This document shows, piece by piece, positions 15,767-26,851 of a stretch of DNA of 64,000 nucleotides. The position numbers and the translations under genes were made by a program. Location of the stretch: positions 394,405-458,404 of the forward strand of contig JAJEEG010000006.1 of assembly GCA_022821085.1 (NCBI GenBank), given 5' to 3'. The notes below the pieces were generated by a model, which was not told where the DNA came from, made no database searches, and was given only the letters and a program-made list of their open reading frames with translations. Every line of letters begins with the position of its first letter. Within the stretch, counting starts at the first letter, position 1. This DNA comes from Candidatus Latescibacterota bacterium. Lineage in GTDB: Bacteria > JAAXHH01.

Positions 15767-17731
15767 ATGAACGCCATGTCCCCTGAACCACCCCGGTCCC
15801 GGGGCGATTCGGCCATTACCTTGCGTGCCGGGCTCATCGGGCTCGCGCTCTCCGCCGTGGTCGCATTCTGGGGCCAGTTCTCCGCCGATCACGCCGGGTA
15901 CAACTATTCCACCTACGCCCATCTCCCCGCGGCGCTGCTGATCCCTTTTTTGATCCTGATCCTGGGCCCCCACGTCCTGCTCAAGAGGCTGGCGCCCCGG
16001 TACGCCCTGACGACGTCCGAGCTGATCGTGGTCTTCGCCATGGGCCTCATCGGTTCGATGGTGCCCGACTGGGGCATGACCAGGTACCTGGTCTCCCTCA
16101 TCACCGGGCCTTTCTACCATGCGAGCCCCGAAAACCGCTGGGCGGAAACGTTTTTCGACACGCTGCCCACGTGGCTGGTGATCAGCGCTAAATCCGACGC
16201 GGTCAGAGTCTTCTACGAGGGGGCCGCGCCGGGTTACCGGATCCCGTGGATGGCCTGGATCTCGCCCCTGCTTTGGTGGATGTCGTGTTTCGCCGCCCTG
16301 ATGTGGACGGGCGCGTGCATCGTGGTCATTCTGAGGAAGCAGTGGGTCAGCCACGAGCGGCTGCGCTTTCCCCTGGGGGAGGTGGCGCTCAACCTGATGG
16401 GCGTGGGGAAGGACCGGGACGATCCGCCCATGGTCCGCACGACCGCCTTCCGGATCGGCGTCGGCCTTTCGCTGGCCGTCGTGGTCTGGAACATCGCCTC
16501 GTACTGGGACATCGTTACGCCCGTCCCCATCATGGGGCCGGACCTGCTGAACTTGACGGTCCATCCATCGATTCCCGATCTTCCCATCAGGCTGAATGTC
16601 TTCGTGTTCTGCTTCGCCTTCTTCATCAATGCCGAGATCCTATTCAGCCTGTGCTTCTTCCTGCTGTTCACGACGCTGCAACGTGGGGTGCTGAACATGC
16701 TCGGGGTCACGGCGGCCACGACCATGTCGCCGACCGGCCTCGTGGGCACGCAGTCCATCGGCGCGCTGATCGCTCTGGTGGTGTGGGGACTGTGGATGGC
16801 GCGCCGCCACCTGGCCGCGGTGGCCCGGCGGGCGTTCAAGAAGGATCCGTCGGTGGATGACAGCGGGGAGTTCTTCTCGTACCGGGTGGCGGTTTTCGGC
16901 CTGTTCTTCGGCCTGTTCTACCTGCTGGCCTGGCTGTACAGCATCGGCATGTCCCTGCCGGTCAGCCTGGTGCTCCTGGCCGTCCTCTTCATCATCTACC
17001 TCGGCATGGCCCGGATCGTAGCGGAGGCGGGACTGGTCGCCATGGACCTGCCGGTGAATGCCAACAACTTCACCGCGGGCATCATCGGCGCCGACAACCT
17101 GGACCCCTCCACGATCACCGCCCTGGGCATGACGAACGCCTTTGCCCGGAACTGGCGGACCTTCACGATGATCGGGCTGTCCCACGCCGCCTACCTGCAG
17201 CGCTGGATGGCGCCGGCCACCCGGCACCTCTTTCTCTGGATCTGCCTGGCTTTCGCCGTCAGCGTAGTTACATCCCTCTACTATTACATCAGCGCGGGAT
17301 ATGCAGTCGGCGCCGACAATCTCCTGTCCAAGCCGGGCGACCTCGTGCCTTTCTTCTACAACACGATCATGACGTGGAACAGCAGCGTAACCAACGTCTC
17401 GGACCTGGAGCTGATCTTCTTCGGAAACGGTATCGTCCTGTACATGCTGATGATCCTCGGACGCTTCCTGTTCCTGTGGTGGCCGCTCCATCCCATCGGC
17501 CTGGTCGCCGTGGCCGCGGACACCGTGCGGTTCATGTTCCTGCCGTTCTTCCTGGCCTGGCTCGTCCAGGTGATCCTGCTGCGACTGGGCGGAGGAGCCC
17601 TTTACCGCCGGGCGCAGCCCCTCTTTCTCGGCATCCTGGCAGGGTATGTCCTCGGCATGGCGCTTTCGTTCCTGGTGGACAGCCTGTGGTTTCCGGCGGT
17701 GCCCCACCAGTTCGAGTCGTTCATCAACTGA
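15767..17731 (+). CDS. Polytopic membrane protein, DUF6785/DUF6784 type (OPT-like transporter suspected)
   Basis: About 654 residues with a dozen or more hydrophobic segments: among them AGLIGLALSAVVAFWG, ALLIPFLILILGPHVLL, ISPLLWWMSCFAALMW, LVLLAVLFIIYLGM and FMFLPFFLAWLVQVILL. Conserved landmarks shared with the second copy (21627-23618) are ITGPFYHAS/ITGPYYNAT, LRKQWVSHERLRFPL, DDSGEFFSYR and ARNWRTFTMIG. The family is of unknown function; the fold resembles oligopeptide-type transporters. GTG 15749 and ATG 15776 are alternative starts. The sulfatase gene begins 19 bp after it, which suggests uptake of a sulfated substrate or export of a product. Confidence 0.82.
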   Translation: MNAMSPEPPRSRGDSAITLRAGLIGLALSAVVAFWGQFSADHAGYNYSTYAHLPAALLIPFLILILGPHVLLKRLAPRYALTTSELIVVFAMGLIGSMVPDWGMTRYLVSLITGPFYHASPENRWAETFFDTLPTWLVISAKSDAVRVFYEGAAPGYRIPWMAWISPLLWWMSCFAALMWTGACIVVILRKQWVSHERLRFPLGEVALNLMGVGKDRDDPPMVRTTAFRIGVGLSLAVVVWNIASYWDIVTPVPIMGPDLLNLTVHPSIPDLPIRLNVFVFCFAFFINAEILFSLCFFLLFTTLQRGVLNMLGVTAATTMSPTGLVGTQSIGALIALVVWGLWMARRHLAAVARRAFKKDPSVDDSGEFFSYRVAVFGLFFGLFYLLAWLYSIGMSLPVSLVLLAVLFIIYLGMARIVAEAGLVAMDLPVNANNFTAGIIGADNLDPSTITALGMTNAFARNWRTFTMIGLSHAAYLQRWMAPATRHLFLWICLAFAVSVVTSLYYYISAGYAVGADNLLSKPGDLVPFFYNTIMTWNSSVTNVSDLELIFFGNGIVLYMLMILGRFLFLWWPLHPIGLVAVAADTVRFMFLPFFLAWLVQVILLRLGGGALYRRAQPLFLGILAGYVLGMALSFLVDSLWFPAVPHQFESFIN

Positions 17732-17750
17732 AGCCAAAAAGGACGCAATC

Positions 17751-19112
17751 ATGGCGGAATCCAGACGCCCCAACCTCCTCTTCATCATGGATGACCAGCA
17801 CCGCCACGACTACCTGTCGGCTGCGGGCGCGTCGTTCCTGAACACGCCGAACCTGGATCGCCTGGCAAGACGCGGGATCCGGTTCACGCAATGCATCACC
17901 AACGCCCCGGTCTGCGCCCCCGCGCGCATCGGCCTGGCCAGCGGATACCAGCCCGCGCGGCTGGGGTGCCTCGACAACAACTGCTACCTGCCCCGGCATA
18001 TCACGCCCTATTACGCCCGCCTGCGGGACGCCGGGTACCGGGTCGGCTGCGTGGGGAAACTCGACCTGGCCAAGCCGGACCCCTACAACGGCCGCCGCGG
18101 CGACCGGCCCCGGGTCTTCGGCTGGGGTTTCACGCACCCCGTGGAGTGCGAGGGCAAGATGCATGCGGGCATGGCGGACGAACCGCGCGGGCCTTACGGC
18201 TTCTGGCTGGAGGAGCAGGGGTTGTTCGAAGCCTTCCGGGCGGACTACGCGGCCCGTCAGGCGCGGGGATGGATCGAGGGCGCGTCCCACGACTCGGTGC
18301 TGCCCACCGAGGCCTTCGAGGACGTCTACATCGGCCGCCGTGCCGCCGAATGGATCGGCGCCGTGCCTGACGACTACCCGTGGCACCTCTTCGTGAGCTT
18401 CGTAGGTCCACACGACCCCTTCGATCCGCCTGCCGAATACGCCGACCGTTACCGGGACGCCGATTTGCCGCCGGCCGTGCGCAGCGGCCGCGTGGAGAAA
18501 CCGGGCTGGGTCAACGCCCGGCGGCGCAACCTCTCCGATGACGAGGTCGCCGTCACCCGTCGCCAGTATAGTGCGGCCATCGAACTGATCGACGACCAGG
18601 TGGGCCGGATCGTCGAAGCGGTTGAACGGCGGGGGATGGGGGAGGACACGGTTGTCGTCTTCGCCAGCGACCACGGCGAGATGCTGGGCGATCACGGGTT
18701 GTACACCAAGTCGGTGCCCTACGAGGCGGCCCTGCGGGTACCCTTGATCGCCGCCGGCAGGGGCATACCGGGCGGACGGACCTCCGACGCCCTCGTGGAA
18801 CTGATCGATGTCAATCCCACCCTGTGCGCCCTGGCGGGCCTGCCCGCGCAGGAGGGCCTCGACGCGAGCGACTTCGGCCCCGTGCTCGCCGGGGAACGGA
18901 CGACGCATCGGGAGGAGGCGGCCAGTGCCCTGCGCGAGTTCAGGCTGGTCCGGACCGCGGAACGCAAGCTGGTGGCGCACCACACGGGCGAGGTCGAGCT
19001 ATATGACCTGGCAAATAATCCAGATGAGTTGGAGAACGTGGCGGAAGACAGGCCCGACGAGGTCGCGGCGCTGCGGAGGCGGCTGCGCCGCCGGTTTCAC
19101 TTCCCGCCCTGA
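17751..19112 (+). CDS. Type I (formylglycine) sulfatase
   Basis: 453 residues. The activation motif CAPARIGLASG (Cys55 in C-x-P-x-R) is intact, so formylglycine formation is expected. Metal ligands are in NLLFIMDDQHRHD (Asp14, Asp15) and VVFASDHGEMLGDHG. Family members remove sulfate from carbohydrates or other esters. No signal peptide or lipobox is visible, so the enzyme appears cytoplasmic, which fits import of the sulfated compound by the adjoining membrane protein. AAAGGA precedes the ATG at good spacing. It ends ten bases before a convergent PhyH gene. No formylglycine-generating enzyme is in the window. Confidence 0.9.
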   Translation: MAESRRPNLLFIMDDQHRHDYLSAAGASFLNTPNLDRLARRGIRFTQCITNAPVCAPARIGLASGYQPARLGCLDNNCYLPRHITPYYARLRDAGYRVGCVGKLDLAKPDPYNGRRGDRPRVFGWGFTHPVECEGKMHAGMADEPRGPYGFWLEEQGLFEAFRADYAARQARGWIEGASHDSVLPTEAFEDVYIGRRAAEWIGAVPDDYPWHLFVSFVGPHDPFDPPAEYADRYRDADLPPAVRSGRVEKPGWVNARRRNLSDDEVAVTRRQYSAAIELIDDQVGRIVEAVERRGMGEDTVVVFASDHGEMLGDHGLYTKSVPYEAALRVPLIAAGRGIPGGRTSDALVELIDVNPTLCALAGLPAQEGLDASDFGPVLAGERTTHREEAASALREFRLVRTAERKLVAHHTGEVELYDLANNPDELENVAEDRPDEVAALRRRLRRRFHFPP

Positions 19113-19121
19113 GCCTGCGCT

Positions 19122-19967
19122 TTAGTGAAGACCGGGCCCGTCGTACGGCGCGCCCTCTGGCGAGGCTTTTTGCGGCGACACGATCTGCCGCCGCTCGGGG
19201 GTCAGGCGGTCCAGCAGTTCCGGGGACGCCTGGTATCCGTGGCGGAAGTTGCCCCAGGAAGGACCGTACCGGTAAACGACGATACGCCGCGTGCCCGCGT
19301 TCCGCCGCATGGCCGATCCGTGAGAGATACCGTCCACGAAGAGCAGCGCGTCGCCGGCTTCCATGTGCAGCTCCACCGATGCGGAGATGCCCTCCACGGA
19401 AGCGCCTTTCGGCTTCATGGCGTGGCGGGCAAAATCGGGATGGGTGAAGTTGGATTTATGGCTGCCCGGTATGACCATGGTGCCGCCATCCCCCGGACCG
19501 ATGTCGGTCAGGGCCATCAGCACGTTGATCTGTCCGCACATGAACCGGCCGCCGTGGTAGCGGAAACCGTTGCGCATGATGGGCGGGAATCCGCCGGAAT
19601 GCAGGCCTATAGCCTCGCCCGGTTCGCGGAAATTGGCGAAGTTTTCGTCGATGAACAGGGGTCCGTGGGCGTAATCGAACGTGCCTTCGCCACCCACGAA
19701 AAGCTTGAGTTTTTCGATCCATGACGGGTGGTCGATCAGGGCCTCGAAGGGGGCGCCCGCCTCGTAGATCTGCTGCAGGTTCAGGCCGTCCACGGTACCG
19801 TAGGTATGGGCGTGGACGTAACCGTGCCACTCGCCCGGCGACAGCGGCGGGATTTCGTCAAGGCAGGCGTTCAGTTCCAATACTTCCGGTCTGGAAAGCG
19901 CCTGCTTCAGGTGTAAATAGCCCTGCAGGTCGAACAGGTAGATTTCGAGATCGCTTGGCTTGCTCAT
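19122..19967 (-). CDS. PhyH-family protein with His-x-Gly in place of His-x-Asp
   Basis: 281 residues with normal PhyH landmarks: N-terminal helix IYLFDLQGYLHL, core MVIPGSH (about 164-170), distal ISHGSA (His216) and Arg227/228. At the metal site, however, the sequence is GLHSGG: His123-Ser124-Gly125 where Asp should be. I checked the codons (CAT TCC GGC). In Fe(II)/2-oxoglutarate halogenases Ala or Gly at this place leaves room for chloride, so this copy may be a halogenase-like, altered or inactive member. It lies between two sulfatase genes but on the opposite strand, with GGAG upstream of its ATG. Confidence 0.82.
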   Translation of the reverse strand: MSKPSDLEIYLFDLQGYLHLKQALSRPEVLELNACLDEIPPLSPGEWHGYVHAHTYGTVDGLNLQQIYEAGAPFEALIDHPSWIEKLKLFVGGEGTFDYAHGPLFIDENFANFREPGEAIGLHSGGFPPIMRNGFRYHGGRFMCGQINVLMALTDIGPGDGGTMVIPGSHKSNFTHPDFARHAMKPKGASVEGISASVELHMEAGDALLFVDGISHGSAMRRNAGTRRIVVYRYGPSWGNFRHGYQASPELLDRLTPERRQIVSPQKASPEGAPYDGPGLH

Positions 19968-20151
19968 ATACGGTGGGCTCCGAACGTGAAATCCGGTTGA
20001 TTTGTGGCCGGAGATTCGTTACTCTCTTGACCGGCAATATAGCACGCCGGATACCGGTACACAACTCCAATAACCCGAGCCATCGCGCCGTAGCGGGCGA
20101 TGGTTTCATGCCATCCCGATACGCCCGCGGACACCGGACGAGGTAACCTGA

Positions 20152-21522
20152 ATGAAGGCCGCTTCACCGCCCAATGTGCTGATCGTGCTGAGTGATCAAC
20201 TGCGGCGGCAGGCCCTGTCCACCTACGGCGATCCGAATATCGTCACCCCGCACGTCGACGCCCTGGCCGGCCGGGGCGTGCGCTTCGAGAACGCCAGCTC
20301 GACCTGCCCCATATGCGTGCCCTTCCGCTTTACCTTCATGACGGGATTATACGCCCACGACCGGAAGGTCCCCGCGATCGAATACCGGATGTCGCCGGCG
20401 GAACGGACCCTGGCCGACGAATTCAACGAGGCGGGCTACGAGACGATCTACACGGGGAAATGGCATCTCGACGGCGGCCACGGACGCATGGGATCCGCGG
20501 TCCAGTGCGGCAGGACGGCCGTAAAGAAGGCGTACCGGGGCCGCTGGCAGAAGTGGCTCGGTTTCGAACTCAGAAACGGCCCCTTCGACACCTATTACTT
20601 CGAGGACGATGACCCGGTGCCCAGGCCGGTCGAAGGATACCAGACTGACGGACTCTTCGACCTGGGCTTGAACTACCTCGAGCACCGGGACCCGTCCCGG
20701 CCGTTCTGCATGGTGATTTCCGTCGAACCGCCCCACGACCCCTTCGAGGCGCCGGAGACGCTACAGCGGACCTGGGAGGCGATGGACATCGTGCTGCCGC
20801 CCAACGTCGAGGCCGCCGACCCCGGGGCCCTTGAACAGATCATGCTCAACCGGAAGCGGTACTACGCCATGGTGGAGAATCTGGACTGGAACATGGGCCG
20901 CCTGGGCGCCTTCCTGTTGCGTACCGGGCTGCATGGCGAGACCGTCGTCCTGTTCATGGCGGACCATGGAGAGCTCGGCGGCGCCCACGGGCTTCGGGGC
21001 AAGCAGTGGCCCTACGAGGAATCCACGGGGATCCCGCTCATCGTGGCGGATCCGAGGCACCCGGACCGGGCCGGCGCCGTGGTCGAGGACCCGGTCTCCA
21101 CCGAGGACCTGTTCCCCACCATACTGGGCCTGGCCGGCCTGAAGCCGCGAGACGCCCTGCCCGGCGAGAACCTGTCCCCGCTGATACACGGCAGCGCCGG
21201 CAGGCTGGACCGGGAAGGCGTCCTGCTGGAATTCGTGGCGGAACAGAGGAAGGGCGTGGCCTTCCACGACTGGGTGTGGCGCGGGTTCCGTTCCGCCCGG
21301 TACAAGTACACCGTCCGCGGCGACAACCTCGGTGGCAGGCCCTGGCAGTTCTTCGACCTTGCGGAGGACCCGTGGGAACAGCGGAATCTCCTGGAGGATC
21401 CGGCGTACCGGTCGGAGATCTTTCGGCACCACGACCTGCTTCGGCAGCGGATGCAGGAAACCGATGACCACTTCGTACTACTTCCGGCGTACGGCCGGGA
21501 GGGTTTGAATACCTGGGAATGA
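20152..21522 (+). CDS. Type I (formylglycine) sulfatase
   Basis: 456 residues. Activation motif CVPFRFTFMTG (Cys55 in C-x-P-x-R, preceded by Cys52). Metal-binding regions NVLIVLSDQ and VVLFMADHGELGGAHG are present, with YTGKWHLDG typical of the family. No export signal. It is distinct in sequence from the first sulfatase, so a different sulfate ester is likely. GAGG lies eight bases before the ATG. It is followed, after about 100 bp, by a DUF6785-type transporter gene: the same pair as upstream but in the opposite order. Confidence 0.9.
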   Translation: MKAASPPNVLIVLSDQLRRQALSTYGDPNIVTPHVDALAGRGVRFENASSTCPICVPFRFTFMTGLYAHDRKVPAIEYRMSPAERTLADEFNEAGYETIYTGKWHLDGGHGRMGSAVQCGRTAVKKAYRGRWQKWLGFELRNGPFDTYYFEDDDPVPRPVEGYQTDGLFDLGLNYLEHRDPSRPFCMVISVEPPHDPFEAPETLQRTWEAMDIVLPPNVEAADPGALEQIMLNRKRYYAMVENLDWNMGRLGAFLLRTGLHGETVVLFMADHGELGGAHGLRGKQWPYEESTGIPLIVADPRHPDRAGAVVEDPVSTEDLFPTILGLAGLKPRDALPGENLSPLIHGSAGRLDREGVLLEFVAEQRKGVAFHDWVWRGFRSARYKYTVRGDNLGGRPWQFFDLAEDPWEQRNLLEDPAYRSEIFRHHDLLRQRMQETDDHFVLLPAYGREGLNTWE

Positions 21523-21626
21523 AATGCGCGGCCGCGGTATTTGCGCGGACCGGATCCGCCGTTGGCGACCGCGCCGGGCCCGGCCCCGGCAGCAGTGACT
21601 GAACACCAAGGGAAAACGAAGCTTCC

Positions 21627-23618
21627 ATGTCCCAGACCAGCAAGACCGCCCCGCGGACCGGCGAATCCGGAAGCGGGGGCCTGCCAGCCACATTGACGAC
21701 GGGACTCACCCGCCGGGCGTTGCTGATCGGCGTCTTTCTGTCCATACTGCTGAACATCTGGACAATCCACGCGGGCTATATCTCCCAGTCGTCCTTCATC
21801 AGTCTGACCCACCTGCCCGTTTCCGCGCTGTTCCCCTTCCTGCTGGTGGTGCTCGGACTCAATCCCCTGCTGAAACGCTTCTGGCCGTCCAGGATGCTCA
21901 ACCGGAACGAGCAGATCGTCGTCTTCTTCCTGGTGTTCACCGCGTCCACCATTCCGGCGTGGGGTTTCAGCTCCTACTGGATCGGCGGCATCACGGGACC
22001 GTACTACAATGCCACCACGGAGAACCAGTGGGCGGAGCTCTTCTTCCAGTACCTGCCCTCCTGGCTCATCGTCCAGGACCAGCAGCAGGCGCTCACGTGG
22101 TTTTTCGAGGGCATCCCGGACAGCCGCCCGCCGGTCCTCGGCATCATCCGCAATGCCTGGACGATTCCGATGATCTGGTGGATCACCTTCTTCCTCGCCA
22201 TCTTCGTGGTCGGCGCATCGGCCATGGTCATGCTCCGCAAGCAGTGGGTGGAACACGAGCGGTTGACTTTCCCGCTCGCCCAGATCCCGCTGATCATGAT
22301 CGAGGAGCAGAAGGGCCGTGCGCTGCCCGCCGTGATGCAGTCGAAGCTGTTCTGGTACGCCTTCGGCATCACGCTGTTCATTTTCCTCTGGAACATCGTC
22401 GGTTTCTTTGGCTGGGTCAGTCCGATCCCCATCGGCCCGTTGCACAATTTCAACGTGGTACTGGCCCGGGCGTTTCCCAACATACCCGTGAAGTTCAATT
22501 TCCTGGTCGCAGGCGTCGGGTATTTCACCAACCTGAACGTCCTGTTCAGCATCTGGGTGTTTTTCGTCATCATGACCATTCAGCAGGGCATCATGACGCG
22601 CCTCGGCGTGCCCGGGGCCTTCGCCGTCGTCAAGTCGCAGCATTCCGGCGGTTTTCTGGTGTTTACGCTGTACGCGCTGTGGGCTGCCCGGCGGCACCTG
22701 AAGGACGTCGTAATGAAGGCGCTGGGCAAAGCGCCCCACGTGGACGACTCCAGGGAGTTCTTCTCCTACCGCATGGCGGCGCTGGGCGTGCTGGGAGGGG
22801 TCGCCTACATCGTCTGCTGGCTGTATGCGTCGGGCATGTCCCTCGGTATCATCGCCTTCATGATGGGTTCTCTCCTGATCATGTTCGTGGGCGTGACCCG
22901 CATCGTGGCGGAAACGGGCATCGTATTCCTGGACCTGCCCTTCGAGACGCACGATTTCACCGTGGCCGTCATCGGTTCCGGCAGTATCAGTACGCGGGAC
23001 CTGACCAACCTGGCCATCGCCAATTCCTACGCCCGGAACTGGCGGACCCTCGGCATGTGCTCCATGGGGCACATCGCGAAGGTGGACGATGAAATGGGCG
23101 GCACCGGGAAAGGCTCCTTCAAGACCATCACCGCCGTGCTCGCGATGAGCATCGTAGTGGCGCTGGTCTTCACGCTTTACCTGGGATACAATCACGGCGG
23201 GGCTTCGCAGTTTTTCGAGCCGGCCTTCTCCAACGCCGTGCAACTGCCCTACAACAACCTGGTCAAGTGGATCAACAACCGGGAGGCGATCACCGGCACC
23301 GAGTTCTGGTTCATGGTTTTCGGCGGTCTGATCACCGCCTTGCTGATCCAGGCTCACCACCGGTTCACCTGGTGGTCGCTGCATCCCATCGGGTTCACCG
23401 TGGTCCTGACGCCGGGCATGGCCAGTTCGGCCTTTTCCCTGTTCGTGGTATGGTGCGTGAAGGCCCTGCTGCTGAAGATCGGCGGCATCCAGCTCTACCG
23501 GAAGGCCATACCCGCGGTGATGGGCATGCTCGTGGCCTTCGTACTGGGCGTGTTCCTGTCCTACGTGGCGGACGTCACGTGGTTTCCACGGGCCGGCCAT
23601 CCCGTACAGAACTGGTAA
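21627..23618 (+). CDS. Polytopic membrane protein, DUF6785/DUF6784 type (OPT-like transporter suspected)
   Basis: 663 residues, homologous throughout to the protein at 15767-17731. A hydrophilic start (MSQTSKTAPRTGESGSGG) precedes about a dozen hydrophobic segments such as ALLIGVFLSILLNIW, ALFPFLLVVLGL, GVLGGVAYIVCWLY and GMLVAFVLGVFLSYV. Shared motifs include LRKQWVEHERLTFPL, DDSREFFSYR and YARNWRTLGMCS. Function unknown; transport of the substrate or product of the sulfatase is the simplest idea. AAGGGA lies upstream. The Minf_1886 gene follows 17 bp later, so three genes from the sulfatase onward look like one operon. Confidence 0.82.
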   Translation: MSQTSKTAPRTGESGSGGLPATLTTGLTRRALLIGVFLSILLNIWTIHAGYISQSSFISLTHLPVSALFPFLLVVLGLNPLLKRFWPSRMLNRNEQIVVFFLVFTASTIPAWGFSSYWIGGITGPYYNATTENQWAELFFQYLPSWLIVQDQQQALTWFFEGIPDSRPPVLGIIRNAWTIPMIWWITFFLAIFVVGASAMVMLRKQWVEHERLTFPLAQIPLIMIEEQKGRALPAVMQSKLFWYAFGITLFIFLWNIVGFFGWVSPIPIGPLHNFNVVLARAFPNIPVKFNFLVAGVGYFTNLNVLFSIWVFFVIMTIQQGIMTRLGVPGAFAVVKSQHSGGFLVFTLYALWAARRHLKDVVMKALGKAPHVDDSREFFSYRMAALGVLGGVAYIVCWLYASGMSLGIIAFMMGSLLIMFVGVTRIVAETGIVFLDLPFETHDFTVAVIGSGSISTRDLTNLAIANSYARNWRTLGMCSMGHIAKVDDEMGGTGKGSFKTITAVLAMSIVVALVFTLYLGYNHGGASQFFEPAFSNAVQLPYNNLVKWINNREAITGTEFWFMVFGGLITALLIQAHHRFTWWSLHPIGFTVVLTPGMASSAFSLFVVWCVKALLLKIGGIQLYRKAIPAVMGMLVAFVLGVFLSYVADVTWFPRAGHPVQNW

Positions 23619-23635: not shown

Positions 23636-24025
23636 GTGTCGGAAGAAAAGGATCCCCAGGAAGTACTCGACCGCATCCTGGAGAAGGATGGCCGATATCC
23701 CCGGCGGGCTTACCTCTTTGTCATGGAGGCGGTTTCTTTCACGGTGGAAAAACTGTCCGTCCGCAGGCACATTACGGGGAAGGAACTCTCCCTCGGTATA
23801 CGGGATCTGGCCCTGGAGCGGTTCGGCATCGCGGCGAAACTGGTCTTCGACGAGTGGAACATCTCGAAAACCCGTCACTTCGGCGATATCGTGTTCAATC
23901 TCGTCAACGACGGACTACTGCGCAAGACCGAGGAAGATTCCATCGAAGACTTCGACGAAGTCTTCGATTTCAGCACCGCTTTCGAGACAGAAATCCGGAT
24001 CGACGTCGAATCGCAACGTCCCTGA
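23636..24025 (+). CDS. Minf_1886 family protein
   Basis: 129 residues. The N-terminus (ILEKDGRYPRRAYLFVMEAV) and the helix LGIRDLALERFG are hallmarks of the Minf_1886 family, small acidic proteins found mainly in planctomycete-, verrucomicrobia- and related genomes; no function is established. The C-terminus is very acidic (EEDSIEDFDEVFDFS). Translation starts at GTG, with GGAGGA five bases before it. It lies 17 bp after the transporter gene and ends six bases before the convergent acetamidase gene. Confidence 0.85.
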   Translation: MSEEKDPQEVLDRILEKDGRYPRRAYLFVMEAVSFTVEKLSVRRHITGKELSLGIRDLALERFGIAAKLVFDEWNISKTRHFGDIVFNLVNDGLLRKTEEDSIEDFDEVFDFSTAFETEIRIDVESQRP

Positions 24026-24030
24026 TCTTA

Positions 24031-25782
24031 CTACCGGCGGACCGCACGACGCTGCCTTCTACCGAATGTGGGCTTGGCGGGAGCGGTGTCCTGAACGGTC
24101 TCATCCGTGGCTTGCCGCGCCTCCTTGCCGGTATCCGTGGTTTTCGCGAGCGTTTCTGCCGGTTCCGTCACGGCATCCTTTCCGCCGCGGGCTGCCGGAG
24201 CGGTCTCTACCGGGACAGATCCGGCGTCCGATGGTAACGGCGATGGGTCCTTCTGAGCGACCGGTTCGTCTTTTTTAGCGGATCTACCCCCCCTGGTCCG
24301 CCTGTGACCGTTGCCTCGCGCAGAACCCGGGCTTGCCTGCCCGCCACGCTTGCCTCTGGCCGAACCCGGCCGTTTTTCTTTAGCCGCGACCTGCTTCTCG
24401 TCCCTGGCTTCGGCCTTCTGGTCGTCTTTTGCTACGGCCTGCTGGTCGTCACCGGTCGCGTCCTTCGGACTGTCCTTGGCCGCGTCTTTCAGGCCTGGCT
24501 CGGCTGCGACCTGCTGGTCGTCTTTAGCTGCGACCTGCTGGTCGTCTTTAGCTGCGGCCTGCTGGTCGTCTTTAGCTGCGGCCTGCTGGTCATTTTCGCC
24601 GCTCGCGGGAGTCGGCGCGCCGTTCGATTTCTGGCTTTGGCGCGTTCCGCGCCGGCTGCCGGATTGCCGGGACCTGCCCGATCCCCGCTGCGAACGCCCT
24701 GAGCCGGATCTGCGGGATGAACGGGCCGCGGGTTGGTCCGTCTCCGCCGCCACGGTCTCGGCTCCAGCGTCACCATTGGCCGCGGGAGGAAGTTCACGGT
24801 AGTTGAGCCGGCCGGATGCGGCGGGCACCGATTTGAGCTTGTTGATGAGCCGCTTGGGAAAGACCATGCGCGCGGTAGTCAGCGGATTCCCCCACTGGCT
24901 GACGCGCAGGCTGCCCCCCAGGCTGACCAGCGCGTAGGCCGTATCGAAATCGAGCCCCTTGTCCTGCGAGATCCATTTTACCATTTCCGTGATGGCCAGG
25001 CGCGCCGCCTGGTCCACCGTGGACGCGGACGTGATGGTGATCCATTCGCCCTTCGATTCGACCCGGGGCCAGGAGAACCGGCCGCCCGGCAGCGTGTCCA
25101 CCCGCAGGGTGACCTCCGCTTCGACTTCCACGCCGGAACCGGCGATCTGTCCGTCTCCCACGCACGCCTTGACATCGCCCAGCGACAACAGGGCGCCGTT
25201 GACCTGCACGGGGAGATAGACCCGGGATCCGGTCGTGATTTCCAGGGTGTCCATGTTTCCGCCGTGCCGGCCCGGGTAGACCGTGTCGATTTCCCCGTGC
25301 CTGGCTGCCACGCCCATGCTCCCGATCACCGGGTGAAGCGGCAGTTTGAGCCGGTCGTCCAGGTGAACCTGGTTTTCGTTGACTTCGAGGACGCGCACCT
25401 TCGGTTTCTTGATATCCTGACCGGGAACGCCCGTCTCCGGCTGCACGGCGAACACGCCGGTAGCGGCCGTCGTAATCTGTTTGACCTGGATCGACAGTAC
25501 ATCGCCGATGCTGGCTTCTTCCACGTAGATCGGACCGGTTACGGGTATGCCCCCGGACCGGTCGCCGTCTCCATCGGTTCGGGGTTCTTTCGTCAGGAGA
25601 CCCCGGTAGCAGTCCTGCGTTTCCACTACGACGGTTTCACCACGGCTCACCGTAATGGCCGGTGAGACGTTCGGGCCGAATACCTGGTGGACCCGGTCTC
25701 TGGTAACCCGCCTGGTCAGGACGGCCTGCTCCTTGCTGCCTGTCTTGGACGTTCGTGACGTCCTGGATGATCTGCGAAACAA
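24031..25782 (-). CDS. Acetamidase/formamidase with a ~250-residue low-complexity tail
   Basis: The catalytic part (about the first 320 residues) matches the FmdA/AmdA family: RVHQVFGPN, VETQDCYRG, IGDVLSIQV, GRHGGNMD, LSLGDVKACVGDGQI and GEWITITSAS. These enzymes hydrolyse formamide or short amides to ammonia and the acid. After RLNYRELPPA comes a tail of roughly 250 residues, first Arg/Ser-rich (RSSRRSGSGRSQRGSGRS), then KDDQQAAA-type repeats, then a basic end (GRRQRRAVRR). The family normally lacks any such tail. The TTG chosen has AGAGG upstream; ATG at 25854 would add 24 residues and overlap the previous gene, so the start is uncertain. It lies downstream of the ACC-deaminase-like gene. 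Confidence 0.75.
   Translation of the reverse strand: MFRRSSRTSRTSKTGSKEQAVLTRRVTRDRVHQVFGPNVSPAITVSRGETVVVETQDCYRGLLTKEPRTDGDGDRSGGIPVTGPIYVEEASIGDVLSIQVKQITTAATGVFAVQPETGVPGQDIKKPKVRVLEVNENQVHLDDRLKLPLHPVIGSMGVAARHGEIDTVYPGRHGGNMDTLEITTGSRVYLPVQVNGALLSLGDVKACVGDGQIAGSGVEVEAEVTLRVDTLPGGRFSWPRVESKGEWITITSASTVDQAARLAITEMVKWISQDKGLDFDTAYALVSLGGSLRVSQWGNPLTTARMVFPKRLINKLKSVPAASGRLNYRELPPAANGDAGAETVAAETDQPAARSSRRSGSGRSQRGSGRSRQSGSRRGTRQSQKSNGAPTPASGENDQQAAAKDDQQAAAKDDQQVAAKDDQQVAAEPGLKDAAKDSPKDATGDDQQAVAKDDQKAEARDEKQVAAKEKRPGSARGKRGGQASPGSARGNGHRRTRGGRSAKKDEPVAQKDPSPLPSDAGSVPVETAPAARGGKDAVTEPAETLAKTTDTGKEARQATDETVQDTAPAKPTFGRRQRRAVRR
24503..24596. repeat. 24-nt tandem repeat encoding KDDQQ(A/V)AA
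   Basis: Four head-to-tail 24-nt units (24503, 24527, 24551, 24575; the last incomplete) differ by one or two bases and encode an eight-residue repeat in the acetamidase tail. Degenerate copies extend to about 24410. Confidence 0.85.
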
Positions 25783-25831
25783 AATAGATATAACCTCTCG
25801 TGAATGGGTTGGTGGATCTAACCGGAGCGGC

Positions 25832-26851
25832 TCAACCGAAGAGCTCGTCTCCATAGGCGAATACGGCGGGCGTTCCTCCCGTGTGAAGGAATACGACGGA
25901 TTCGTCCGTCTGGAACCGCCCCTCGCGGATGTGTATGGCCAGGCCGTCCATGGCCTTGGCCGTGTATACCGGGTCGAGAACGATGCCCTCGGTCTGCGCC
26001 ACCAGGCGCATGGTCTCGAGGCTGGTACGCGACGGTTCGCCGAAATCCGGTTTGGCGAACGTGCAGGAGACATCGAAATCGTCCGGTGTGAAAGTGTGGT
26101 TCAGTCCGATGACCGAGGCGCATTCGTTGGCCACGGGCGCGAGACGTTCCTGCATCTCCCGGTCGTCTCCCACCCAGTAGTTGAGCCCGACGGCCTTGAA
26201 GCTGGCGGAGACGGCGCGCAGTCCGACCACCAGTCCGACGATGGTATAGGTCATGGAACTCGTATAGATGGCCCTTGGCGTTATGCTCCGCTGCGCGAGT
26301 TGTTCGCACAGTTCGAGGACGGCGTCGACGTAGGCCACGGCACGCAGGATCGCGCCGTCGCTGCTCGTGTCGTAAGCCTTCGATCCCTTCGATTCCAGTT
26401 CCTCGATCTGCTTTTTCAACTCGTCCTTCACGGTCAGCGGAAAGACGTACTTGATCTGGTCCGCCATGAGGTGGTTGAGCAGCAGGTTGCCGGAAACGGG
26501 ATAGGATCGGTGGTCCCGCGGGATGACCACGATGGACTTCATGCCCAGCCGGGCGGCGGCCGCGGCGGTCTGCGCGGACTGGTTGGACTGGGAATCGGAG
26601 CCGTGGACCAGGTAGTCGAAACCGTTCTCGAGGGCGGGACCCAGCGAGTAGGTGAACTGGCGGGCCTTGTTTCCGCCCATGGCCAGCCCGGTCATGTCAT
26701 CGCGTTTGATGTATATACGGGGGCCCCCGAGGGCCTCCCCAAGGCGAGGACAGTCCTGTAGCGGAGTGGGCAGGTGGGCCACCGGTGCTTTGGTGAACCT
26801 GCCCAGAAGGTGACGCAGTTCCTGCGCGGCGTCACGGTCGTACAACTTCAA
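25832..26851 (-). CDS. D-cysteine desulfhydrase / ACC-deaminase-like PLP enzyme
   Basis: 339 residues of fold-type II PLP enzyme. IYIKRDDMTGLAMGGNKARQ contains the Schiff-base Lys (about residue 62), followed by SQSNQSAQTAAAAARLG, and VFLHTGGTPAVFAY binds the phosphate end. This motif set is shared by 1-aminocyclopropane-1-carboxylate deaminase and D-cysteine desulfhydrase; environmental homologues are more often desulfhydrases or D-amino-acid enzymes. The start is TTG with GGAG nine bases upstream, in a leader holding three 15-bp repeats. Downstream is the acetamidase gene: both would release ammonia from nitrogen compounds. Confidence 0.85.
   Translation of the reverse strand: MKLYDRDAAQELRHLLGRFTKAPVAHLPTPLQDCPRLGEALGGPRIYIKRDDMTGLAMGGNKARQFTYSLGPALENGFDYLVHGSDSQSNQSAQTAAAAARLGMKSIVVIPRDHRSYPVSGNLLLNHLMADQIKYVFPLTVKDELKKQIEELESKGSKAYDTSSDGAILRAVAYVDAVLELCEQLAQRSITPRAIYTSSMTYTIVGLVVGLRAVSASFKAVGLNYWVGDDREMQERLAPVANECASVIGLNHTFTPDDFDVSCTFAKPDFGEPSRTSLETMRLVAQTEGIVLDPVYTAKAMDGLAIHIREGRFQTDESVVFLHTGGTPAVFAYGDELFG

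Follow-up and report, generated by a model that had tools for sequence, protein, structure and literature searches.

How do sulfated compounds reach sulfatases that appear to stay inside the cell, and what are the membrane proteins encoded beside them? These questions are raised by a 64,000-nucleotide stretch of DNA (the window, to whose first letter the coordinates below refer) from a metagenome-assembled genome (MAG) of Candidatus Latescibacterota, an uncultured marine bacterium whose genome is labelled G000 here. Two sulfatase genes lie in this window next to genes for membrane proteins with DUF6785 and DUF6784 domains, one pair on either side of a PhyH-family gene. The original prediction, made from the sequence alone, took the pairs for mirrored cassettes that import intact sulfated compounds and desulfate them in the cytoplasm. 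In outline, the membrane proteins are predicted with high confidence to have the fold of OPT transporters, the sulfatases seem to be cytosolic, and the link between the two families is real but loose. The five genes are as follows.

15767–17731, + strand: DUF6785/DUF6784 membrane protein 1, 654 residues (PF20581, 355 bits; PF20580, 63 bits)
17751–19112, + strand: sulfatase 1, 453 residues (PF00884, 140 bits, and SGSH_C; motifs CAPAR and GKLD)
19122–19967, − strand: PhyH-family protein, 281 residues (PF05721, 55.7 bits; HxG for HxD)
20152–21522, + strand: sulfatase 2, 456 residues (PF00884, 158 bits, and SGSH_C; motifs CVPFR and GKWH)
21627–23618, + strand: DUF6785/DUF6784 membrane protein 2, 663 residues (PF20581, 365 bits; PF20580, 65 bits)

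Pfam confirms this row at the places first described: domains score above the curated cut-offs in all five genes, and both DUF6785 and DUF6784 are found in each membrane protein.

A predicted transporter fold for the DUF6785/DUF6784 proteins

The fold of the membrane proteins was approached through an AlphaFold2 model of protein 2. The input alignment comprised 81 DUF6785 family members from the window and the named loci, and the model reached a mean predicted local distance difference test score (pLDDT) of 90.9 and a predicted template modelling score of 0.90. Compared with the Protein Data Bank (PDB) by Foldseek, it matched barley Yellow Stripe 1 (HvYS1; E 3.1e-10). VIA-align superimposed it on HvYS1 (7wsr_A) over 544 residues with Z 23.2, a root-mean-square deviation of 3.9 Å and 12% identity; the next entry had Z 4.1. 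Because of this match, DUF6785/DUF6784 is predicted with high confidence to be a remote OPT-type transporter family, OPT-like by fold and not classed in PF03169. The clear link came from fold comparison only. Sequence merely hints at it: protein 2 scores 18.5 bits on Pfam OPT (PF03169), below the cut-off of 25.8, and protein 1 is not listed. A PDB sequence search with the DUF6785 alignment returned nothing at E values up to 1, and the NCBIfam models gave no name to either window transporter.

OPT proteins are known for the transport of small peptides and chelates. The DUF6785/DUF6784 proteins would be inner-membrane secondary transporters, an assignment that rests on the confidently predicted fold, and probably importers by analogy with the OPT superfamily. 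The structural comparison proposed with the original prediction thus yielded a predicted OPT fold for protein 2. Of the role in import foreseen for the two families, the transporter fold is supported; the substrate is not given by the locus alone. Residues R204, Q206, W207, E211, H357, E377, Y381 and R382 of protein 2 are conserved in DUF6785. The family is large, with 15 to 33 genes in each of the four genomes for which the count is complete (G000, and G068, G077 and G093 from another phylum). The literature library used gave no paper under the names DUF6785/DUF6784, and none that brings together the OPT family, oligopeptide transporters, sulfatases and bacteria.

Chemistry, maturation and location of the sulfatases

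Both window sulfatases combine a PF00884 match above the cut-off with an intact C-x-P-x-R motif, as had been predicted, and are formylglycine sulfatases by these marks. A second motif, GKxH, is important in the sulfatase active site and is carried by most sulfatases of the genome, including sulfatase 2. On the choline-sulfatase model TIGR03417, the pair score 223.5 and 178.7 bits, below the equivalog cut-off of 433.45. PF00884 has 30 matches in the genome, corresponding to 29 genes. In two of these proteins (L004:2111–3559 and L015:4754–6178) no C-x-P-x-R was detected, and they are possibly not sulfatases. An anaerobic sulfatase-maturating enzyme is encoded at locus L029 (TIGR03942, 491 bits, above the cut-off). 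FGE (PF03781) has no match in this genome, and is absent from 10 of the 12 genomes of the genus, this one included.

The claim that the window sulfatases lack an export signal is borne out. A stop codon stands directly upstream of sulfatase 2, which starts at the fold, and no hydrophobic stretch precedes the fold in sulfatase 1. Signal peptides were judged throughout by a hydrophobicity rule of our own rather than by SignalP, and gene starts came from a home-made caller and open frames. Under this rule the gamma-glutamyltransferase of the window, used as a control, shows a clear signal peptide. In 15 of the 29 sulfatases of the genome, the open frame extends fewer than 18 residues upstream of the fold, too short a stretch to hold a signal peptide; of the rest, one raised a doubtful flag, for a hydrophobic stretch far upstream of the fold. 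No sulfatase was flagged among 20 from G013, which represents another genus of the same family, among 21 from G077, or among 11 near DUF6785 genes in the phylum of G077. The G013 and G077 samples are high-scoring matches rather than random ones (20 of 68 matches, and 21 of 50 matches merged to 45 genes). Absence of a signal as a mark of DUF6785-paired sulfatases alone was considered and ruled out, the signal being absent from essentially all sulfatases of the genome.

The sulfatases of this genome seem, from their sequences, to be cytosolic. If so, the cell must either take up their sulfated substrates or make them itself. The published Latescibacteria model has sulfatases desulfating polysaccharides before sugar uptake, and notes the maturase (PMC4454575); PAUC34f, described as a sister clade of Latescibacteria, is enriched in sulfatases (PMC7081726). 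The literature searches returned no paper connecting Poribacteria with sulfatases and phytanoyl enzymes, and none on cytoplasmic sulfatases in connection with signal peptides and sulfated compounds.

Association of DUF6785 genes with sulfatases

Within the window the pairs are compact. Sulfatase 1 starts 19 bases past the stop of transporter 1, and 104 bases separate sulfatase 2 from DUF6785 protein 2. The cassettes are mirrored in gene order; they do not form an inverted repeat, as both sulfatases and both transporters lie on the + strand. The membrane proteins are homologous throughout, as first stated, with 36% identity over 673 residues, and the sulfatases are 26% identical. Judged by this divergence, the two transporters are old paralogues, and so are the two sulfatases. 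The shared strand, these identities and the position of the two DUF6785 proteins in distant branches of the family tree rule out a recent inverted duplication as source of the mirror. The closest named relatives of the locus of DUF6785 protein 2 are Candidatus Latescibacterota MAGs, some of them labelled Gemmatimonadetes. Among 77 relative loci, the five-gene row is kept in six (L062–L067; in L066 a contig end cuts the first transporter), and its second half in L100. Conservation of the row alone says little, because the flanking genes are conserved too in the loci that keep it.

Adjacency was counted across whole genomes. A DUF6785 gene was scored as adjoining a sulfatase when at most 1500 bases separated the domain edges on the same strand, and the expectation was derived from random placement; the p-values treat genes as independent, and a handful of sulfatase matches, weak or split, had been merged or omitted. 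In G000, three of 15 DUF6785 genes have a sulfatase neighbour by this measure, against 0.32 expected (p 0.0035). The other-phylum genomes give two of 15 in G068 (0.38 expected), one of 33 in G077 (0.80) and one of 23 in G093 (0.22). Pooled over the four genomes, seven pairs stand against 1.72 expected (p 0.002). Ignoring strand, the comparison is seven against 3.26 (p 0.048), and without G000 it is marginal, at four against 1.4 (p 0.054). The MFS family, taken as a control, shows no clear excess beside sulfatases (one of 15 in G000, 0.59 expected, and none of 12 in G077, 0.50 expected; any strand, 1500 bases). At L005, also in G000, about 25 bases are shared by the transporter gene and the sulfatase gene.

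On a DUF6785 tree of 99 proteins, the six leaves with an adjoining sulfatase are spread over some five separate positions and two phyla. The tree was built with FastTree after dereplication at 75% identity had reduced 185 sequences to 99, and was midpoint-rooted, support values not being read. This scatter looks like repeated recruitment. Enolase-superfamily, sugar-isomerase-like, Gfo/Idh/MocA and SDR proteins also occur as near neighbours of DUF6785 genes. In other Latescibacterota-type MAGs (L116, L117, L118 and L121) DUF6785 and sulfatase genes lie tail to tail, with domain edges about 50–240 bases apart, an arrangement unlike that of the window.

The statistical association anticipated in the original prediction is thus present as an excess in G000 and in the pooled count, and a number of observations weigh against a tight or general coupling. 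No adjoining sulfatase is found for 12 of the 15 DUF6785 genes of G000 or for 67 of the 71 in G068, G077 and G093, where neighbouring genes were called for 66 of the 71 and some places of G077 were left out. In G093, the counted pair has another gene in between. Sister taxa G012–G014 have no sulfatase within 5 kb of any of 22 DUF6785 genes in 20 regions, these being the listed high-scoring DUF6785 matches, many of them on short contigs. Two loci beyond the genus group whose DUF6785 proteins are among those closest to protein 2, L068 (65% identity) and L069 (58%), have no sulfatase alongside. Sulfatase is the top family among near neighbours, yet at six of 75 against three of 75 far genes the difference is not significant (p 0.49); near genes were immediate same-strand neighbours no more than 400 bases away and encoding at least 120 residues, DUF6785 left out, and far genes were a random 75 of 225 from the same loci. 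Conversely, 26 of the 29 sulfatases of G000 do not adjoin a DUF6785 gene, and DUF6785 proteins therefore cannot be the sole route. In the window, the row is interrupted by the opposite-strand PhyH gene, and sulfatase 1 has GKLD at the aligned GKxH place in seven of seven copies. The GKxH histidine is absent there, so that this active site is not canonical throughout. On balance the DUF6785–sulfatase link is real but loose, and sulfatases are one recurrent partner of a broad transporter family.

Proposed pathway and alternatives

We tentatively propose, at somewhat less than even odds, that each window cassette is an uptake-and-desulfation pair, in which an intact sulfated compound is imported and desulfated in the cytosol. 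(i) The DUF6785 transporter would bring a small intact sulfated compound into the cell. (ii) A cytosolic sulfatase, activated by the anaerobic sulfatase-maturating enzyme, would remove the sulfate. (iii) The organic part would presumably be catabolised, and the released sulfate used or exported. The closeness of both TauE-family anion exporter genes of G000 to a sulfatase fits such sulfate handling. The 19-base and 104-base gaps and the overlap at L005 make the adjoining DUF6785 genes natural candidates for the importers, although their carriage of sulfated substrates is itself inferred. Since OPT proteins carry small peptides and chelates, the likely substrate is a small sulfated metabolite or a short oligosaccharide, not a polymer. 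The divergence between the two pairs is large enough that they may serve different substrates. The OPT fold, the cytosolic-looking sulfatases and the maturase agree with the order of events first suggested, import before desulfation; strong or exclusive pairing of the two families does not emerge.

The same fold would also suit importers of other compounds, such as peptides, metal chelates, sugar acids or de-sulfated parts, with the sulfatase substrates entering by other routes. This is less probable, though a serious contender: most DUF6785 genes adjoin genes other than sulfatases, with the four families named above recurring, the sole solved fold relative is an Fe(III)-phytosiderophore importer, and other sulfatases of the genome adjoin MFS or amino-acid permease genes. 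It accounts poorly for the fact that several DUF6785 lineages, in two phyla, separately stand beside sulfatases on the same strand. Mere chance neighbourhood, in a region with many acquired catabolic genes and with no functional coupling, would fit a window crowded with PhyH genes (13 recognised), a gene order confined to near relatives whose flanks are also conserved, and the 0 of 22 in G012–G014. Same-strand adjacency above random placement, the 19-base gap of cassette 1 and the gene overlap at L005 render it improbable.

Two further explanations concern the enzymes. The two proteins might hydrolyse phosphate, phosphonate or other anion esters rather than sulfate esters. PF00884 includes such enzymes, phosphonate monoester hydrolases are among the solved matches of sulfatase 1, the GKxH histidine is missing from all seven of its copies, and neither protein reaches any NCBIfam equivalog cut-off. 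Against this stand the intact C-x-P-x-R of both proteins, the sulfatase maturase of the genome and solved matches that are mostly sulfatases, and the reading is improbable. Export by a route without a classical signal, with desulfation outside the cell, would agree with the polysaccharide model of PMC4454575, where desulfation precedes sugar uptake. It is very hard to reconcile with the finding that essentially all sulfatases examined in three genomes have no signal or no room for one.

The uptake-and-desulfation proposal can be carried further, with more reserve. DUF6785/DUF6784 may represent a new bacterial branch of OPT-type importers, greatly expanded in sulfatase-rich uncultured lineages, part of which imports intact sulfated small molecules for wholly cytosolic sulfatases; we regard this as a possibility on the weaker side. 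If true, it would reverse the usual picture of these bacteria desulfating polysaccharides extracellularly. Uncultured Latescibacterota rich in sulfatases would consume small sulfated molecules instead of breaking down sulfated polysaccharides outside the cell, and sulfatase counts in metagenome studies would be read differently. The DUF6785/DUF6784 family gains a fold and a testable role.

The intervening PhyH gene and other genes of the window

The PhyH gene between the cassettes is atypical, as the original prediction held. HSG stands in place of HxD in eight of eight orthologues, the window copy included, and HxD is present in the other 19 PhyH rows aligned; the seven further HxG orthologues are 88–93% identical to the window copy. 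The distal His216 and Arg227 are kept, and the canonical Fe(II)/2-oxoglutarate HxD...H triad is not present. Iron/2-oxoglutarate halogenases show this pattern, with HxG or HxA at that place and the remaining ligands retained, so the protein may catalyse halogenation or may have lost an oxygenase activity. Its solved relatives found by sequence search are oxygenases, with partial coverage, and its predicted structure is poor (pLDDT 68). A second HxG PhyH of the genome (L017:8401–9207) lies two genes from another sulfatase. The window as a whole holds at least 13 PhyH-family genes, an unusually dense cluster.

Three other genes of note lie beyond the second cassette.

23636–24025, + strand: Minf_1886 family protein (TIGR04138, 130 bits, cut-off 60), next in line after the gene for DUF6785 protein 2
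24031–26073, − strand: formamidase-like protein (66.8 bits, cut-off 500) whose C-terminal tail is long, of low complexity and made up of repeated AKDDQQ-type units
25832–26851, − strand: pyridoxal phosphate-dependent enzyme, scoring below the cut-offs of the models to which it comes closest, D-cysteate sulfo-lyase and D-cysteine desulfhydrase; sulfur-related and near the cassettes

Relation to known systems

Several known systems come close to the window cassettes. With the OPT superfamily, represented by barley YS1 (PDB 7wsr, 7wst), DUF6785 protein 2 shares a predicted fold over nearly its whole length; it is only 12% identical to YS1, and the neighbours of DUF6785 genes are catabolic. With the formylglycine sulfatases of PF00884 (S1 family), the window sulfatases share the domain and the C-x-P-x-R and DHGE motifs. 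They differ in the GKLD of sulfatase 1, and sulfatases throughout this genome differ in having no export signal. In choline-O-sulfate utilization, the intact sulfate ester is imported and desulfated inside the cell by the cytosolic choline sulfatase BetC. The window sulfatases score on the choline-sulfatase model, but below its cut-off, and the transporter belongs to a different family. A further parallel lies in the genome itself. Both of its TauE-family anion exporter genes are within 1.3 kb of a sulfatase (probability 0.0015 by random placement), and at L024:3878–7461 (G000:C1:1338377–1341960) genes for a TauE-type exporter, a sulfatase and an MFS protein stand in a row on one strand. Like the window cassettes, this TauE/SafE–sulfatase–MFS arrangement fits import, cytosolic desulfation and anion export. 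There, however, an MFS gene takes the place of DUF6785, whereas the window cassettes have no TauE gene.

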